Shown here: positions 5,804-63,794 of the stretch, piece after piece
Layout: every line of letters starts with the position of its first letter
Position numbering within the stretch: the stretch's first letter is position 1
Source: Frankia casuarinae
GTDB lineage: Bacteria > Actinomycetota > Actinomycetes > Frankiales > Frankiaceae
NCBI RefSeq assembly: GCF_000013345.1
Contig: NC_007777.1
Span: forward strand, 3,286,001-3,350,000
Length of the DNA stretch: 64,000 bases
Reading direction: 5' to 3'
The notes under the pieces: model-generated
What the model saw: only the letters and a program-made list of their open reading frames with translations
Database searches by the model: none
Told to the model about the DNA's origin: nothing
Made by a program: the position numbers and the translations under genes

Positions 5804-8515
5804 CTACGGCGTCGGCCGCGGGCCGTCGGGACCGGATGCCGCGGCCCTCCCGCCCGGACGGACGACCGCCCCCGGACGGACGACCGCCGCGGACCGCGGG
5901 CCGTCGGCAGGCGCACCCTCGGCACGCACCGCGGGCAGGGTCCGCACGTTGCTCTGCGGAACCGACGGGCGGCGCGCCGTTTCCAGGTCCACCCGCGCGG
6001 CCACCGCCGTCAGTTGACGGCGGGTGATCACCCACACGAGTTCGAGCAGGACCGCCGCCGCCACGGCGATGCCGACCGCCGTCCACGGCCCGGTCGTCCC
6101 CACCAGGGAGAGCTGGAAGAACTCCTGGCCGGAGGGGATAGCCAGGACCAGCGCGAACGCGACCGCCATGGTCAGCACGAGCGCGATGCGCCACCAGGTG
6201 TACGGACGGGCGACGATCGCCAGTGCCCACAGCGCGACTCCGAACAGCGTCAGCGTCGCCATCGAGGTTTCGGCCTCCAGGTCATGACCATAGAAATGCG
6301 ACCGGGCCAGCAGGTAGGACGTCATCGTCGCCGCGGCGGCGAGCAACCCGGTGGGAAGGGCGAAGCGCAGCACCCGACCGACGAAGTCCGGCTGCGCCCG
6401 CTCGGTGTTCGGTGCCAGCGCCAGGAAGAACGACGGGATGCCGATCGTCAGCGACCCGACAAGCGTGAGATGCCGAGGGAGGAACGGGTACGGCACCTGC
6501 GTGATCACAACCACGATCGCGAGCAGGACCGAGTAGACGGTCTTGGTCAGAAACAGGTTCGCGACCCGTTCGATGTTGCCGATGACCCTCCGTCCCTCGG
6601 AGACCACAGACGGCAACGTCGCGAAGCTGTTATTCAGCAGCACGATCTGGGCGACCGCGCGGGTCGCCTGACTGCCGGATCCCATCGACACGCCGATGTC
6701 GGCGTCCTTGAGCGCCAGGACGTCGTTGACGCCGTCGCCGGTCATCGCGACGATGTGCCCCCGCGACTGCAACGCCGCGACCATCTCCCGCTTCTGCTGC
6801 GGGCTGACCCGCCCGAAGATCGAGTGGCTCTCCAGGGCGTCGGCGAGCGCGGCCCGGTCGGTCGGCAGCGTGCGGGCGTCAACGGGATCGTCGGCGCCGG
6901 GCAGCCCCAGCGTGCGGGCGACCGCGCCGACCGACAGCGCGTTGTCCCCCGAGAGAATCTTGGCGGCGACGTTCTGCTCGGCGAAGTACCGCAGGGTATC
7001 CGGGGCATCCGCCCGCAGCCGCTGGGCGATGACCACGAGCGCCACCGGGACGACGCCGGCCGGCACCGTCGCCGGGTCCGCCAGCGCGTCCGCCAGCGAC
7101 GCGCCGAACCGGGCGAGCAGCAGCACCCGCAGGCCCTGCGCCCCGTACTCGTCCACGGTGGCGAGCACCCGGTCACCGGCCGCCAGCAGCACGTCGGGCG
7201 CGCCGAGCAGCCAGGTGCCCTCGGTCCCGCCCACGGCGGCGAGGGTCGCGCCGCTCCACTTGCGCGCCGAGGAGAACGGCGCGTCCGCCCGCACCTGCCA
7301 GCCCGGCGGGGCGGGATAGGCATCGATGATCGCCTGCATGCTCGGATTCGGCCGGCTGTCGGCCGCGCCGAGGGCGCCGAGCACGCTCGGCACGAGGGTG
7401 CCCGGCGCTGCGGCCACGCCTGCCCCAACGGCGGCGCCGGTGCCCGGCTCGACGATCCGCAGCTCCACGACGTCCATCGCAGCCTCGGTGAGGGTGCCGG
7501 TCTTGTCCAGACAGACGACGTCGACGCGGGCCAGCCCCTCGATCGCGGGCAGTTCCTGCACCAGGCACTGCCGCCGGCCCAGCCGTACCACGCCGACCGC
7601 GAAGGCGACCGACGTAAGCAACACCAAGCCCTCCGGCACCATCGGCACGAGTCCGGCGACCATCCGGCGGATGGCCTCGGGCAGGTCGTCGTCGTTAACG
7701 ACCACCTGGCTGACGATCAGCGCGATGCCGGCCGGAATAATCATCCAGGTGACGACCCTCAGAATGGTGCTGATGCCGCCCCGCAGCTCGGAGCGCACCA
7801 GGGTGAACCGGCTCGCCTCCTCGGCGAGCCGGGCCGCGTAGGCTTCGCGGCCAACCCGGGTCGCCCGGAACGCCCCCGACCCCGCGACGACGAAGCTGCC
7901 CGACATGACGATGTCACCGGGCTGCTTGTGCACCGGATCCGCCTCGCCGGTGAGCAGCGACTCGTCGACCTCCAGGTGATCGGCCGTCAGGACCAGACCA
8001 TCGACGGGAATCTTGTCGCCGGCGCCGAGCTCAATCACGTCGTCCAGCACGATCTCGGCGGCGGGGAGCTCGCGGGTGACACCGTCACGCCGCACGACGG
8101 GCCGGGACTCCCCCACCACGGCGAGCCGGTCCAGGGTGCGCTTCGCCCGCAGCTCCTGGAACAGGCCGACCAGGGTGTTCACGATGATCACGCCGCCGAA
8201 CAGGGCGTCCTGGAATGGACCGACGATGGCGACGAAGACCAGTAGAACACCGATGATCGCGTTGATCCGGGTGAGGACGTTCGCACGGATGATGTCGCGC
8301 AGCGAGCGACTGGAGCGGACCGGCACGTCGTTGACGCGGCCGTCCGCGAGGCGTTCGGCGACCTCGGCGGCGGTCAACCCAGCGGCGGATCGACCGATCG
8401 CGATGGGTCCGGACCCGGCCCCGGCGGCGGACGCGGAATCGCTGGGAGGCGCCGGGTTCCGGTCGTCGAGCCGTCCCGGAGACAGCCGCGCTCCCGCGGC
8501 CCCTCGCCGAACCAT
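5804..8515 (-). CDS. Cation-translocating P-type ATPase, CtpE-like (probable calcium transporter)
   Basis: A 903-residue P-type ATPase without N-terminal metal-binding domains. Visible motifs: TGEAD in the actuator, the transmembrane MVPEGLVLLTS, the phosphorylation loop DKTGTLTE with Asp337, the hinge GDGVNDVLALKDADIGVSMG, then six predicted C-terminal helices. The MVPEGLVLL signature is that of mycobacterial CtpE, a calcium-uptake ATPase, rather than the CPx motif of copper pumps. It is therefore probably not part of the copper system it faces, despite convergent ends only 22 bases apart. The last 50 residues are Pro/Ala/Arg-rich and probably disordered. uppP lies 205 bases upstream on the same strand. 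Confidence 0.88.
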   Translation of the reverse strand: MVRRGAAGARLSPGRLDDRNPAPPSDSASAAGAGSGPIAIGRSAAGLTAAEVAERLADGRVNDVPVRSSRSLRDIIRANVLTRINAIIGVLLVFVAIVGPFQDALFGGVIIVNTLVGLFQELRAKRTLDRLAVVGESRPVVRRDGVTRELPAAEIVLDDVIELGAGDKIPVDGLVLTADHLEVDESLLTGEADPVHKQPGDIVMSGSFVVAGSGAFRATRVGREAYAARLAEEASRFTLVRSELRGGISTILRVVTWMIIPAGIALIVSQVVVNDDDLPEAIRRMVAGLVPMVPEGLVLLTSVAFAVGVVRLGRRQCLVQELPAIEGLARVDVVCLDKTGTLTEAAMDVVELRIVEPGTGAAVGAGVAAAPGTLVPSVLGALGAADSRPNPSMQAIIDAYPAPPGWQVRADAPFSSARKWSGATLAAVGGTEGTWLLGAPDVLLAAGDRVLATVDEYGAQGLRVLLLARFGASLADALADPATVPAGVVPVALVVIAQRLRADAPDTLRYFAEQNVAAKILSGDNALSVGAVARTLGLPGADDPVDARTLPTDRAALADALESHSIFGRVSPQQKREMVAALQSRGHIVAMTGDGVNDVLALKDADIGVSMGSGSQATRAVAQIVLLNNSFATLPSVVSEGRRVIGNIERVANLFLTKTVYSVLLAIVVVITQVPYPFLPRHLTLVGSLTIGIPSFFLALAPNTERAQPDFVGRVLRFALPTGLLAAAATMTSYLLARSHFYGHDLEAETSMATLTLFGVALWALAIVARPYTWWRIALVLTMAVAFALVLAIPSGQEFFQLSLVGTTGPWTAVGIAVAAAVLLELVWVITRRQLTAVAARVDLETARRPSVPQSNVRTLPAVRAEGAPADGPRSAAVVRPGAVVRPGGRAAASGPDGPRPTP

Positions 8516-57445: not shown

Positions 57446-58696
57446 TCAGACGGACGGGGTGACCATATCGTCGGCGATCCGCTCGATCCTGGCCCGCAAC
57501 TCGGCCAGGGGGAGCCTCAGGTCGAGCACGTACGTCACGAGCCCGATGGGCGTGGGACCCCCGATCCGGCTCCGGATGACGTCGCCACGACCGCCGGGCT
57601 GGCCGTCGGCCCGCTCCGAGCCGGCGTAGACGAGCCATCCCTGCCGGGCGCCGAGCCGGGCACAGTAGGCGATCATCTGGTGGTACACGTGTGCGCGCGC
57701 GCCCTGTCGGATCGCGAGCCGGTACTTCGCGTCGAGGACAACCGCCGGGATCATCCGCCCGCCCGGGCCCTCCGGCCGGTACAGCACGAGATCGGGGCAC
57801 ATCTCCAGCGTCCGGTCCTCGTCGAGGTGGTGGGTGCGGTCCTGCAGGCGGACCTCACCGCCGCGGTGGGTGAGGACCTCGTCGACGGCGTGGGTCACGA
57901 AGTCCTCGAAGACCTCCCACATCTTCACCACGAAGCCGTCCACCCGGAGCGTCTCCCCGTCTTCCCGTTCGAAGGAAGACGAGCGCAAGACCGTCTCGGC
58001 GAGCCGGAGCGCCGCATGGTAAGGCGCGTTCACCCGGGTTGGCACCCAGTCCGGCGGCTTGACGGGGCCGTGCGCCGGCTCGGCCACACCGTCCAGGGCG
58101 GCGGCGATACGGCGCAGCTCCTGGGCGGTGGCCGGTGCCACCCCGGCCAGGGCGAGCAGCGAGCGGGTGGCGGCGAGCAGCAACCGGTTCTCGGCGGTGT
58201 CGACGGTGCGCTCGTCATAGCGCACCTCGAGGGGGAACATCACCCCGGACCGTTGCCGGAGCTGCGCGGACTCGCGCAGCCGGCCGCGAAGGACGGGAAG
58301 CGCCGCATCCACCTGCCGATAGCCTCGCGGCACCCCGTGCGCGAGCGCCCGCGAGGCGGTTCGGGCGAACGCCGCGGCGACCGCGGGCAGAAGATCCGGT
58401 TCCTCCGCCGCCTGGACCTCGTCCTCGAACCACCTGCCGCGATCCTGCGCGTAGCCAAGCAGAAACAGCAGACGGCGGATGGTGACCTTGGGTCGGATGC
58501 GAACCTCGAACGTATCCTCGCCCGACCCGAGGCGCACGGTGCCGACCAGGGCGTTGTCCTTGACCTCGCAGGTACCGTCGGCACGCCGTTGCCGCACCTG
58601 CGCCACCTCGCTGGCATCGAGCGCATCGGCCTGGCCCGGGCTCAGCTTCCGCCGCTGCCACCCGGCGCCCTCGGTCAGCTCCACCGGCGCAAGCAT
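57446..58696 (-). CDS. mcrC: McrC-type component of a McrBC restriction system
   Basis: 416 residues from ATG 58696. The N-terminal domain (ELTEGAGWQRRKLSPGQADA) and a middle region with PRGYRQVDAALPVLRGRL, RYDERTVDTAENRLLLAA match McrC. The C-terminal PD-(D/E)XK nuclease reads CPDLVLY, then PAVVLDAKYRL with the catalytic Asp and Lys. Together with McrB it cleaves methylated foreign DNA. It starts four bases after the mcrB stop, so the two are coupled. Confidence 0.92.
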   Translation of the reverse strand: MLAPVELTEGAGWQRRKLSPGQADALDASEVAQVRQRRADGTCEVKDNALVGTVRLGSGEDTFEVRIRPKVTIRRLLFLLGYAQDRGRWFEDEVQAAEEPDLLPAVAAAFARTASRALAHGVPRGYRQVDAALPVLRGRLRESAQLRQRSGVMFPLEVRYDERTVDTAENRLLLAATRSLLALAGVAPATAQELRRIAAALDGVAEPAHGPVKPPDWVPTRVNAPYHAALRLAETVLRSSSFEREDGETLRVDGFVVKMWEVFEDFVTHAVDEVLTHRGGEVRLQDRTHHLDEDRTLEMCPDLVLYRPEGPGGRMIPAVVLDAKYRLAIRQGARAHVYHQMIAYCARLGARQGWLVYAGSERADGQPGGRGDVIRSRIGGPTPIGLVTYVLDLRLPLAELRARIERIADDMVTPSV

Positions 58697-58700
58697 GGCA

Positions 58701-60926
58701 TCAGCCTGCCGCGGGGCCGGGGATGGTGTTCGCGGGGACTCCGGCGGCCGGAACCACCGCGGCCGGAACCACCGCGGCCAGGCCGAGGGACTGCCGCAGC
58801 GCCGGTAGGCCGTACCGGGCCGCGAGATCGATGGTCTCGCCGACGTGGTGTTCGGCCAGCAGCGGCAGGATCTGATGTTCCCACACCCGGTCGAGGCCGT
58901 CGGCACTCTGGTGGACGCGGTCGCGCATCAGATAGGACGGGCCGATGCGGGCGTCCGGGTCGTCGATGCGGCGGTTCAGCTCGCCGAGCAGGCGGGCCGC
59001 CTCGTCGGGCAGGTCGCCTGCCGCAAGCCAGCGGCGCAGCACGGACGCGGTCGGTTCGACGTCCGGATGGAGCCCGACGAAGGTGAACCGCCGGCGCAGC
59101 GCCTGGTCGAAGGCGGCGATCGAACGGTCCGCGCTGTTCATCGTGCCGATGATGAACAGGTTCTTCGGTAGTTGGAAGTCGCGCGTGTCCGCGGAGGCGT
59201 ACTGGGTGGTGACGGCCTCCCCGCGGTATTCCAGCAGAAAGTACAGCTCACCGAAAATCCTGGCCAGGTCACCCCGGTTGATCTCATCGATGATCAGGAA
59301 GAACGCCTGGCGGGGATTGAGCTCGGCGGCGGTGGCGAGCCGGCGCAGCGGACCGTCCACGAGCTCGAAGGACATCCGGTTGGTGGTGGCCGCGTCACCG
59401 TCGCCGCCCTTCACCTGCACCGGACGGAAACCCTGGAAGAAGTCCTCGTACATATAGGACGGATGGAACTGGACGAGGGTGACGTTCTCGCGCCGATCGT
59501 CGGCGAGATGCCAGGCCAAGCGCCGGGCGAGGTACGTCTTGCCGGTGCCGGGCGGGCCGTAGAAGATGAGCTGCGGCCGGTCCCGCAGAAGCTCGACGCA
59601 CCTGCGCAACCAGTCCCGGCTGTAAAAGAGGCCGTCCGCGAACTCGTCCGTGACCTCGCGCAGATCGTCCCCGCCGAGGGCCTGGCCGGCGAGGGCCTGG
59701 CCGGCCAGGTCGGCGTCGGCGCTCTGGGGGGCGGCCCCCGTCGTCGCGATCGATGCCACCGGCGCGGGCGCGGGCACCAGGGCGTCGAGGTCGGCGACGA
59801 AATCGGAAAGATCGACGATGCGCGCTTCCGCGTTGCCGAGCAGGGCCGCCACCCGATCGGGTAGATCGAGGTAGTTCACCGGCTCGTCGGCGTTGCGCCA
59901 GTGGACCGGCCGTTGCAGGTCCGCGACGCCCCCGACGCTCGCGACGAACACCGGCGGTCCGAGGATCTCCCCGACGTAGTACTCGTCACGGTCGTTCACG
60001 ACGACGAGGTCGTTCTCCCGCATCCGGCTCAGGAAGGCGTGGTACTCGCTGGTGAGCCGGCCGCGCCGGGCCGAGGTGAGCGAGGCGTGTTCGCGGTCGA
60101 CCGCCCGGCGCACCTGCTCCCGGTCGACCCCGGGCCGCACCTCCAGCCGGTCACCGGGCAGGGAACAGACCTCGTCGGCCAGCCAGAGATCCCGCGCCAG
60201 CGAACGGCCACGCCGGTCCGCGCCGCGCACCAGCCAGGCCCGGCGAGGGATCCGCTCCGGCGCGATGGACTCGACGAGCATGCGGAGGTCGTCGAGCGGC
60301 AGCCGCAGCTCGCCGGCAGCCCGCCCCGCCGTCAGGTCGCCGACCTCGACCTCGAACCAGTCCAGCCAGTCGCGATACTCGTCCTCGGTGAAGAGGGCCT
60401 CGCGCGGCGGCCGGCCCGCCGGGTCGAGTACGCGCGACCAGCCCTCGGGGCGGAAGCCGCACAGATGGCGGACGAGGCCATCGACCGTCAGATCGGCCAC
60501 CGTCGAGAGATCCGTGACGCTGACCCAGGTCTGTTCGGGCAGCACCGCGAGGACGTCGTCCACCAGGCCAAGGCTGCTCCGGTGTTCCCGCCAGTAAGTG
60601 TTGTGCTCCGTGACATCACGCCACCACGCGGCCTCGTCCGGGGACGCCCGCAACGCATCCCGGCCGATTCCGGTAGCCTGCCACCGGCGGTTGCTCTCAC
60701 TCAGATGACCGGCCCTGGCCAGGTAGACAGCGCCCCGCAGGACGAGTTTCCTTGCGACGGCGCTCCGCGGGTCGTCACCTGATCCGCGCCGCCATCCGGG
60801 ATCGGCGCCAGCATCGGACGCACGCATCCGCATCCACAGCTCGTCCGGAGACGCCTCGCCGACCTCCGCCAAGATCCGCATAACCCGGTACAGCAGCCCG
60901 CCGATGATCTCTAGCTGATCCGCCAT
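58701..60926 (-). CDS. mcrB: McrB-type AAA+ NTPase with N-terminal winged-helix and EVE-like domains
   Basis: 741 residues from ATG 60926. The N-terminal region (about 1-260) is a helical/winged-helix module (LLYRVMRILAEVGEASPDEL). A middle segment (about 290-360, FLSRMRENDLVVVNDRDEYY then VGEILG and RPVHW) looks like an EVE/PUA-type modified-base reader. The C-terminal AAA+ motor has Walker A FYGPPGTGKTYLARRLAW, Walker B FFLIIDEINRGDLARIFGE and sensor TMNSADRSIAAFDQALRRRF. The tail has AVVPAAVVPAAGVPA repeats. It is the recognition and translocation subunit of type IV restriction. Confidence 0.9.
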   Translation of the reverse strand: MADQLEIIGGLLYRVMRILAEVGEASPDELWMRMRASDAGADPGWRRGSGDDPRSAVARKLVLRGAVYLARAGHLSESNRRWQATGIGRDALRASPDEAAWWRDVTEHNTYWREHRSSLGLVDDVLAVLPEQTWVSVTDLSTVADLTVDGLVRHLCGFRPEGWSRVLDPAGRPPREALFTEDEYRDWLDWFEVEVGDLTAGRAAGELRLPLDDLRMLVESIAPERIPRRAWLVRGADRRGRSLARDLWLADEVCSLPGDRLEVRPGVDREQVRRAVDREHASLTSARRGRLTSEYHAFLSRMRENDLVVVNDRDEYYVGEILGPPVFVASVGGVADLQRPVHWRNADEPVNYLDLPDRVAALLGNAEARIVDLSDFVADLDALVPAPAPVASIATTGAAPQSADADLAGQALAGQALGGDDLREVTDEFADGLFYSRDWLRRCVELLRDRPQLIFYGPPGTGKTYLARRLAWHLADDRRENVTLVQFHPSYMYEDFFQGFRPVQVKGGDGDAATTNRMSFELVDGPLRRLATAAELNPRQAFFLIIDEINRGDLARIFGELYFLLEYRGEAVTTQYASADTRDFQLPKNLFIIGTMNSADRSIAAFDQALRRRFTFVGLHPDVEPTASVLRRWLAAGDLPDEAARLLGELNRRIDDPDARIGPSYLMRDRVHQSADGLDRVWEHQILPLLAEHHVGETIDLAARYGLPALRQSLGLAAVVPAAVVPAAGVPANTIPGPAAG

Positions 60927-61466
60927 GCACCCGCCCCCGAGACGATCCACCCGCAGGATCTGATCGGGAGCAATTATTCATCAGGTCATCAGACAACGAC
61001 GAAGCACTCATAGCGAACGAAACTTCCACTACCCAGAGTGATCATTCTGGTGAGCCAGCCAGGCCGTCCGGAGAGGTATCGAGCCGTCCGTTTCCCGCTG
61101 TCGCCGTCCACACGCCTCACGCACCGAACGCCCGTCGCCCCCGGCAGGCCTGCCGGCAACCGAAGATCGATGCTGCCGTGAGCAGGCACACAGGCCGGCA
61201 GGAGCGTCCTCACCGCGAGCATGAAGGCGCGCGAACCGATCTGTTTCGCGCGGCGCCGGCTCACGTGGACCGCGGAGAAATACGCCCCCCGATCGCCGGA
61301 GGTGATTACAGGCGGCAATCCCGCCCGGCTCGCTTCTCCGCGCCGGGATGCCGTACAAGTGCCAGGCGCTTCTGAATACGATACCGTTGGCCCGGTCACG
61401 AGAATGGCTCTCTTCTGCCCCGGGAGCGTCCATGGCTGTTCGCCGGTCTCCGGCCAGGTTACCGCG
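60927..61466. other. Intergenic region between mcrB and the zeta-toxin gene
   Basis: 540 bases between divergent genes. The zeta frame stays open upstream to 61221 and could use ATG 61404, so its right part may be coding. No other gene or strong palindrome is seen. Confidence 0.5.
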
Positions 61467-62711
61467 GTGACTCCGGCCGAGTTCCGTGGCCTCGAAACCG
61501 CCCCGGAACGACCCGACGCAGGCGGTGGGCCGGTCCCGGAGCAGTCTCGGGTCACCGAGATCGACAGAAAGCTCGACCTGCTGGACCGCGCCGCCTCCCC
61601 GGGCGACTCACCCGAGCCCCGCCATCAGGAGCGACCGGCCGGCCGGGATGCTCCCAGCCGGAACACCTCCAGCATCGACGCCAAGCTGGACCTTCTCGAC
61701 AGGGCGGCGCTCGCCCGTTCCGGCGGCGGCGCGGCTACGCCGGCGGACACCACCGGCGACCGGCCGTCCGAGGTCCGCCCGCCCACCGAGCCCGGGAACA
61801 GCGACCGGGCTCGGACCGAGGCCAAGCTGGCGCTGTTGGAGGACGCGGCCCGCCGCTACCGCCCCGAGCCCCCGGACGCGCCCGCCCCCGGTCGGGAGCG
61901 CTGGGCCGTCCGCGAGGCACCGCGGACTCTGCCGGACGACCATCCGCTCCTCACCCCGACGGACACCATCAACACCCCCGAACGCGCCGCCCTCCGGGAG
62001 AATCTGGTGAAGGAGGTGATCGGCGATGCCAAGCCGCCGGAGCAGGGCAGCCCCACCCTCGACCTCATGGGCGGCGGCGGAGCCTCCGGCAAGGGCTTCG
62101 TGCTGGAGTACCTCAAGGACGAAGGCCAAGTACCCACCGAGAACGTAGTCCATCTTGATCCCGACGAGATCAAGAAAATGATCCCCGAGTTCGACGAGAT
62201 CATGGGTGCAGGAGACTCGCGCGCGGCTGAGGTGGTCCATGAAGAGAGCAGCTCACTCGCGAAGGGAGTCCTTCAACAGGCCATGGACCGCCGCCTCAAT
62301 ATCATCTACGATAGCACCCTCGGCAACCCGGAGAAGACCGCCAAGCTGATCGATGACGCGCATGCGAAGGGATACGAGGTTCGCCTATTCGGGGTGAGTG
62401 CCGATCCGGAGCTCGCGGTCACGCGCGCCGCGGACCGCGCCGCAAAGTCCGGCCGCTATGTTCCCGTTGACCACCAGCTTGCGGCACACCGTGGATTCTC
62501 CCAGGGCTTCGAAGGTTATGCCGAGAAGGCCGATAAAGTACGTCTTTATGACACCAACTCTGAACCCCGACAGATCGCCCGCAAGAGGGCGGGCGAAATT
62601 TTGACAATTCTCGACCAAGGATCGTACGATAAATTTCAAAATAAAATAAACATTAATCCAGAAGCCATGGGGCCGACATCACTGTACACCGATCGAGGCG
62701 AAAACCAATAA
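61467..62711 (+). CDS. Zeta-toxin-family P-loop kinase with a repeated N-terminal domain
   Basis: 414 residues if it starts at GTG 61467 (ATG 61404 and 61221 are in frame; no start has a strong ribosome site). Residues about 202-400 are a zeta-toxin-like kinase: Walker A GGGGASGKGFVLEYL, HLDPDEIKKMIPEFDE with catalytic Asp, YDSTLGNPEKTAKLIDDA and RAADRAAKSGRYVP with the arginines. Zeta toxins phosphorylate UDP-sugars or other metabolites. The N-terminal 130 residues hold three copies of a DxKLDLLDRAA motif (about 31-43, 70-81, 118-128). The last 100 bases are AT-rich, unlike neighbours. No secretion signal is seen. Confidence 0.88.
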   Translation: MTPAEFRGLETAPERPDAGGGPVPEQSRVTEIDRKLDLLDRAASPGDSPEPRHQERPAGRDAPSRNTSSIDAKLDLLDRAALARSGGGAATPADTTGDRPSEVRPPTEPGNSDRARTEAKLALLEDAARRYRPEPPDAPAPGRERWAVREAPRTLPDDHPLLTPTDTINTPERAALRENLVKEVIGDAKPPEQGSPTLDLMGGGGASGKGFVLEYLKDEGQVPTENVVHLDPDEIKKMIPEFDEIMGAGDSRAAEVVHEESSSLAKGVLQQAMDRRLNIIYDSTLGNPEKTAKLIDDAHAKGYEVRLFGVSADPELAVTRAADRAAKSGRYVPVDHQLAAHRGFSQGFEGYAEKADKVRLYDTNSEPRQIARKRAGEILTILDQGSYDKFQNKININPEAMGPTSLYTDRGENQ

Positions 62712-62786
62712 TTTTCACTTCGACGACCAGCTACCCGCACAATCCGAATATCAGACAGATGGTTTCACGAGAAAAAGGAGCATAGC

Positions 62787-62990
62787 ATGGAAGGCAAGGA
62801 AACCGACGAGGAGTTCGACGCTCGTCGTTCACAGAAGTTCGATGAGGGGATGGACCGACTCCAAACCTTCGACCCAGATAAATGGGAGGCCGTCAAGAAG
62901 CGGATGCGCGAGAAGGAAGAAGAGGAGACCAAGCGCATCTTCGGCGACAAGAAGCCCACTCTGTATGTCGATCGCTATACCGACCTGTGA
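62787..62990 (+). CDS. Small charged protein following the zeta-type kinase, candidate partner or antitoxin
   Basis: 67 residues with a strong ribosome site (AAAAAGGAG, 6 bases before ATG 62787). Very rich in Glu, Lys, Asp and Arg, with predicted long helices (SQKFDEGMDRLQTF, EAVKKRMREKEEEETKRIF) and a short C-terminal PTLYVDRYTDL. No family is recognised. It lies 75 bases after the kinase gene on the same strand. The toxin-first order differs from epsilon-zeta systems. It shares the low GC of the kinase 3' end. Role as antitoxin is inference. Confidence 0.75.
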   Translation: MEGKETDEEFDARRSQKFDEGMDRLQTFDPDKWEAVKKRMREKEEEETKRIFGDKKPTLYVDRYTDL

Positions 62991-63154
62991 GGCTTCGCGG
63001 CTGATCCCGGCGGCCCACAGAACCCGTCGGTATCGGGTGAAGTCAGATCGGCGCTGAGATCGTACGCAGAGATCCGGGGACGCGGCTACCAGAGGGCGTG
63101 CTGGTCGCCGGGAGGTGGCTCCGTGCCTTGTGCGCGCCGAAGGCTGCGAGGGTG

Positions 63155-63794
63155 GCCGGGTGAGGATATACTCGAGCATCACGTAGTTCGTCAGCAGGAT
63201 GTCGGGACGCCGATCCAGGATCCGCTGCCGGGACTCGGCCAAGTCCTGCCCGGTGTACCGGTCGAAGGTGACCGACCGGCCATCCACGGGTATTCCCCAT
63301 TCGAGATACTTCTTCAACTCGTGGAGCTGGCTGTTCGCCAGCGCGTTCATGGGGTAGACCACGATCGCCGAGATGCGGTTCGGGCGGGGGTCACGGAGGA
63401 CGGAATCCACGACCGGCACGATGTAGGAAAGGCTTTTACCGGATCCCGTGCCGGTGGTGAGCACATAGCTGCTGCCGTCCCGGGCCGCCTCGATGGCTTC
63501 CCGTTGGTGCCGATACAGCGTCAGCGACCGCCCGCCGGGATCGCCGGAATCCCTCTTGACCCGGAAGAATCTGCCGCAGTCGGGGTGCAGCAGACCTGTG
63601 CCGACCAGTTCGTCGACCGTGCCGCCGGAGGCGAACGCAGGGTTGAGCGAGATCCACGGGTCAGGCCAGCGGACCTTCGCCGCCCGCTCCCGCTCGAGAT
63701 AATCTTTGATCTTCTCGTCGCGAACCTCGACGAGGGAGTCGGTGAAGGCCGCATAGTCCTCGATCAGGCTCCGATGAGTCTCGAAGACCTCCAC
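63155..63794 (-). pseudogene. 5' stump of a DEAD/DEAH-box helicase of defence type
   Basis: Starts at GTG 63794 after AGGGAG. About 210 residues read as a genuine helicase N-terminus: WPDPWISLNPAFASGGTVDE, a Q-motif-like LYRHQREAIEAARDG, Walker A TTGTGSGKSLSYIVPVVDSV, YPMNALANSQLHEL and ILLTNYVMLEYILTRP. It matches the large DUF1998/MrfA-linked helicases found in bacterial defence systems. Homology stops at about 63155, just before the DE-H box motif is expected. The frame then runs on, unrelated, to 62829, so most of the protein is missing. Confidence 0.82.

Follow-up and report, generated by a model that had tools for sequence, protein, structure and literature searches.

We found that two adjacent genes of Frankia casuarinae, a zeta-like kinase gene and a small gene directly downstream of it, form a conserved pair that is gained and lost jointly, with selection acting on the small protein and with a zeta/AvrRxo1 kinase fold that keeps the catalytic Lys, Asp and Arg residues. 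The pair lies at 61467–62990 of the 64,000-nucleotide stretch analyzed here (the window), which spans positions 3286001–3350000 of a single-contig genome of 5,433,628 bases. It is probably an intracellular toxin-antitoxin pair in toxin-first order, and its arrangement is best read as resembling that of AvrRxo1:Arc1, with a candidate antitoxin that looks unrelated.

The kinase is carried by four Frankia genomes, namely the study genome, Frankia sp. QA3, Frankia sp. AiPs1 (G012) and G006 (7,497,934 bases), and an orthologue of the small protein is encoded directly downstream of it in all four. Among the 13 genomes compared within the genus, the small protein occurs in the same four as the kinase, and the other nine have neither; the chance of such co-occurrence is 1/715 if the small protein is taken as present in 4 of 13 genomes independently of the kinase. 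Sampling was extended to 394 genomes of the class, where these four Frankia genomes alone had the small protein and were also the only ones with a close kinase (next best match, E 5e-8). A single-sequence scan of the genome contigs with the kinase found no relatives; a scan of these contigs with the small-protein alignment gave, among the matches listed, only Frankia sp. QA3 and AiPs1, and a scan of viral contigs found no copy of it. The neighborhood of the pair is conserved, between sugar-ABC permease and phosphofructokinase genes. G006 has 2,109 bases holding only the kinase and the small gene between a GNAT gene and the next conserved block, and at the empty sites of G011 and G002 the same junction measures 74 bases and about 165 bases, indicating that the two genes come and go as a unit. 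The features of the locus, all on the + strand, are as follows.

61467–62711, +: zeta-like kinase, 414 amino acids, GTG start; Pfam Zeta_toxin, same start in three other Frankia genomes, AvrRxo1/zeta fold
61467–61940, +: N-terminal extension carrying the motif helices; mostly low predicted local distance difference test score (pLDDT), likely disordered
61560–61595, +: motif copy 1, IDRKLDLLDRAA; K, L, LL and D invariant across four orthologues
61674–61709, +: motif copy 2, IDAKLDLLDRAA; KLDLLDRAA identical to copy 1 at the protein level, second copy also in AiPs1
61815–61850, +: motif copy 3, degenerate, TEAKLALLEDAA; absent from the orthologues
61941–62681, +: kinase domain, residues about 159–405, pLDDT mostly 80–95; 161–405 aligns to 4z8u
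62070–62096, +: P-loop GGGGASGKG, from the GKG/GKS comparison
62601–62630, +: sigma-70-like promoter match TTGACA-18-TACGAT, within the kinase gene and upstream of the small gene
62787–62990, +: small charged partner, 67 amino acids, candidate antitoxin; ribosome site, adjacency in four of four genomes, purifying selection

The initial annotation of this DNA had described a zeta-type kinase followed by a small charged protein, and both are real. The kinase matched Pfam Zeta_toxin (PF06414) at 191.8 bits (E 1.2e-56; curated cut-off, 22.3 bits). The right start is the GTG at 61467, since M-T-P-A-[DE]-[FI] opens the protein there in each of the four orthologues; an alternative start at 61221 was ruled out, as conservation begins at 61467. 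The kinase domain was modeled confidently (pLDDT mostly 80–95), and its best structural match was AvrRxo1-ORF1:ORF2 (4z8u/4z8v; Z 19.4–19.5, root mean square deviation 3.0 over 231 residues), tied as closest with zeta (1gvn_B; Z 18.9, deviation 3.5, 220 residues aligned). Foldseek likewise gave E 1.1e-12 against the zeta fold, and PezT (2p5t, Z 17.7) and then polynucleotide kinases (Z about 13.9) followed. Lys209 of the P-loop, Asp231, Arg324 and Arg330, which correspond to zeta Lys46, Asp67, Arg158 and Arg171, are invariant in the orthologues.

The zeta motif set, which had been called complete, is not. In the study genome, QA3 and AiPs1 the residue after the P-loop lysine is Gly (GKG), with GKS in G006. 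The position of GTxR, the UNAG (UDP-N-acetylglucosamine)-binding motif of zeta proteins (motif roles and definitions as in PMC6362051), reads STLGN in three orthologues, including ours, and SVLAD in the fourth; with GTxR missing, the zeta substrate is not implied for this kinase. Just as the initial annotation had stated, no epsilon-like antitoxin precedes the kinase: McrB lies upstream on the opposite strand in the study genome, and GNAT lies upstream in the orthologous loci. Thus, the fold is zeta/AvrRxo1-like, yet the system is not a canonical epsilon/zeta one, having no upstream antitoxin, no GTxR and a GKG P-loop.

The small gene starts at ATG 62787, with AAGGAG at 62775–62780, six bases ahead of the ATG. 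Identity of its product to the study copy is 66% in QA3, 48% in AiPs1 and 35% in G006. The ratio of nonsynonymous to synonymous substitution rates (dN/dS) is 0.12–0.61 among the four orthologues, and codon position 3 is the most changed in all pairs. Judged by comparison of the four adjacent orthologues and one clear orphan copy, the small gene encodes a real protein under purifying selection. The initial annotation had taken a small protein unconserved beside homologous kinases as grounds for dropping its two-gene toxin module; we found the partner adjacent to the kinase in all four genomes and under purifying selection. The idea of a two-gene toxin module with a downstream antitoxin or immunity gene is thus supported in part, by this adjacency, by shared absence from nine genomes, by gain and loss as a unit and by the precedent of AvrRxo1:Arc1 with its like order; the McrBC and helicase neighbors fall outside the proposed module.

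The model of the small protein is a two-helix hairpin at low to medium confidence (pLDDT about 50–74), and its conserved tail is a low-confidence region. Matches of the small protein to HEPN_AbiV (17.1 bits; cut-off, 27.1) and to BrnA (E 0.69) were dismissed as chance. When both genes were modeled as one read-through chain, with the stop read as Gly, the kinase part was confident. The two genes share one frame in the study genome and in QA3 (L123, 3318–5204), separated by a single stop in an otherwise open linker of 23–25 codons, and in AiPs1 and G006 they overlap in another frame. Two promoter-like sites were found against 0.3 expected; the match TTGACA-18-TACGAT lies where the kinase gene is AT-rich, at its 3' end, and from it the small gene could be transcribed separately.

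The nearest relatives of the kinase by sequence are the zeta domains of a minor head protein of cyanophage PSS2, of Bacteroides phage DAC16, of a Lactiplantibacillus plasmid and of Halovirus HCTV-5; among phage families, PHROG 16619, a minor head protein, matched best (E 1.7e-21). The kinase shares VHEESS with these phage and plasmid relatives, in the variant form VHDEAS in HCTV-5, and the GKG P-loop is also present in PSS2, DAC16 and HCTV-5. A 13-row tree splits, with support of 99/97, into the Frankia kinases with the phage/plasmid set on one side and the actinobacterial zetas with a plasmid zeta of Diaphorobacter on the other; the inner forks lack resolution, so a direct phage origin of the kinase does not follow. 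The study genome has a second Zeta_toxin gene (2733867–2734439, − strand), which is more typical, lacks this small partner and groups with the actinobacterial zetas. No similarity was visible by eye in the small genes upstream of other actinobacterial zetas, and none of the papers searched linked Frankia to a zeta toxin.

The N-terminal extension has pLDDT values of about 30–45 in most blocks, except for short helices at residues 25–43, 70–82 and 113–129. Three motifs had been claimed there: two are exact KLDLLDRAA copies, which differ only by synonymous codons, and the third is degenerate. Across the long open stretches of the window, 60,381 residues in all, KLxLL[DE] was found nowhere else. 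QA3 and G006 have one copy each and AiPs1 has two, the first copy always being kept. A profile of the kinase N-terminus gave no further matches in the 13 genomes of the genus. The junction in AiPs1 is 2.6 kb and includes part of the N-terminus of an extra, second kinase (L009, 3530–3796, + strand), which lies immediately upstream of the AiPs1 kinase and is possibly a decayed duplicate.

Compared with a type II toxin-antitoxin pair, the two genes show the adjacency, the co-inheritance and the selection; we infer toxicity of the kinase, its inhibition by the small protein, and roles for the helices of the small protein and for the N-terminus of the kinase. In the proposed mechanism, free kinase would phosphorylate a small-molecule or nucleotide substrate, which need not be UDP-N-acetylglucosamine, and growth would be slowed or stopped. 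The co-inherited 67-residue two-helix protein would bind and block the kinase, probably by way of helix 2 and of the conserved tail at its C-terminus (FGD-P-W/Y-x-D-x-Y). With its KLxLLD helices, the disordered N-terminus of the kinase may serve as an accessory anchor that engages the small protein or a host factor or allows self-association. A more specific version, which we put forward tentatively and with less confidence than the toxin-antitoxin assignment, is that a new antitoxin family, marked by an FGD-P-W-x-D-x-Y tail, neutralizes, in toxin-first order, a zeta kinase that is of phage lineage and does not act on UNAG, and that the repeated KLxLLD of the disordered N-terminus directs the kinase to a partner or target.

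Several observations weigh against a toxin-antitoxin pair. The small protein matched no known antitoxin or other family above cut-off, and a PDB search reaching to E 10 matched it to neither epsilon/PezA nor Arc1. The three orthologous loci were examined for the internal promoter match, and none showed it. Orphan small-protein copies without a kinase are present in QA3 (clear; L020, 4877–5074, − strand) and in AiPs1 (weak; L021, about 6586–6738, + strand, E 8.9e-5), and the sample comprises only four orthologous pairs from a single genus. The clear orphan in QA3 resembles an orphan immunity gene, which would fit a different pair, an effector with the small protein as its immunity protein or secretion chaperone, in which the kinase would be an exported protein, or one delivered to competitors or to the plant host, and the disordered, variable N-terminus a trafficking region. 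Relatives of the kinase are fused to phage head proteins, and Arc1 was itself initially taken for a chaperone (PMC4938570), which also favor such a pair; however, Pfam recognized neither a secretion domain nor a head domain in the N-terminus, and within the parts of the four loci that were read, no secretion genes were recognized by eye beside the kinase. We consider this explanation unlikely.

Slightly less probable still is that the kinase is a non-toxic enzyme of metabolism, nucleic-acid repair or anti-phage defense, with the small protein as its activator or adaptor. The missing GTxR, the polynucleotide kinases as next structural neighbors, and McrBC and a truncated DruE-like helicase as neighbors in the study strain would suit such an enzyme, but the three orthologous loci lack these defense genes, and PADLOC gave nothing above noise for either protein. 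EzeT is a zeta toxin inhibited in cis. For the Frankia kinase, the retention of the KLxLLD helix as copy 1 in all four orthologues is consistent with a kinase held by its own N-terminal helices and only tuned by the small protein. However, the extension is poorly conserved and mostly of low confidence, and its motif copies vary from one to three, so that we regard restraint in cis as very improbable.

The genes flanking the pair differ in the study strain, which has no GNAT there and in which the pair is flanked by McrB/McrC and by a truncated helicase. McrB and McrC (57446–60950, − strand) occupy the conserved permease-phosphofructokinase site in this strain only, which is likely an insertion hotspot. 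The helicase stump (63152–63794, − strand) best matches the N-terminus of Druantia DruE (PADLOC, E 3e-22) and is a truncated defense gene. An open reading frame at 62829–63794 was rejected as a full helicase, since helicase similarity is confined to the first ~214 residues and the tail runs antisense across the small gene. These neighbors are strain-specific and therefore not part of the module.

If confirmed, the toxin-antitoxin pair would be a second, apparently unrelated case in which the antitoxin is encoded downstream of a zeta-fold kinase. It would link zeta toxins encoded on chromosomes with kinases carried by virions and plasmids, and would offer a small pair that is easy to test, and whose substrate can be sought, in a plant symbiont that fixes nitrogen.

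Among known systems, the zeta domains of tailed phages differ in setting, the PSS2 and HCTV-5 kinases lying within large virion or multidomain proteins. Epsilon/zeta of pSM19035 and PezAT share the kinase fold and the catalytic Lys, Asp and Arg residues with the Frankia pair, but their antitoxin is encoded upstream, whereas the Frankia partner is downstream and unrelated in sequence, and the Frankia kinase lacks GTxR and has a GKG P-loop. PezAT-Mtb (Rv0366c-Rv0367c) is an actinobacterial zeta-like toxin that likewise lacks GTxR (PMC6362051), but its antitoxin is an upstream ribbon-helix-helix protein. AvrRxo1:Arc1 is a demonstrated toxin-antitoxin pair in which a zeta-fold kinase, acting on NAD, is followed by a small antitoxin (PMC4938570), and all four Frankia loci likewise have a small partner gene directly downstream of a zeta-fold kinase. 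The two systems differ in that kinase identity is about 19% over the aligned region, the Frankia partner is not detectably related to Arc1 in sequence, and the Frankia pair has no known link to a secretion system. The toxin-first order is also that of polymorphic toxin-immunity pairs, such as the MuF toxins (PMC5576092).
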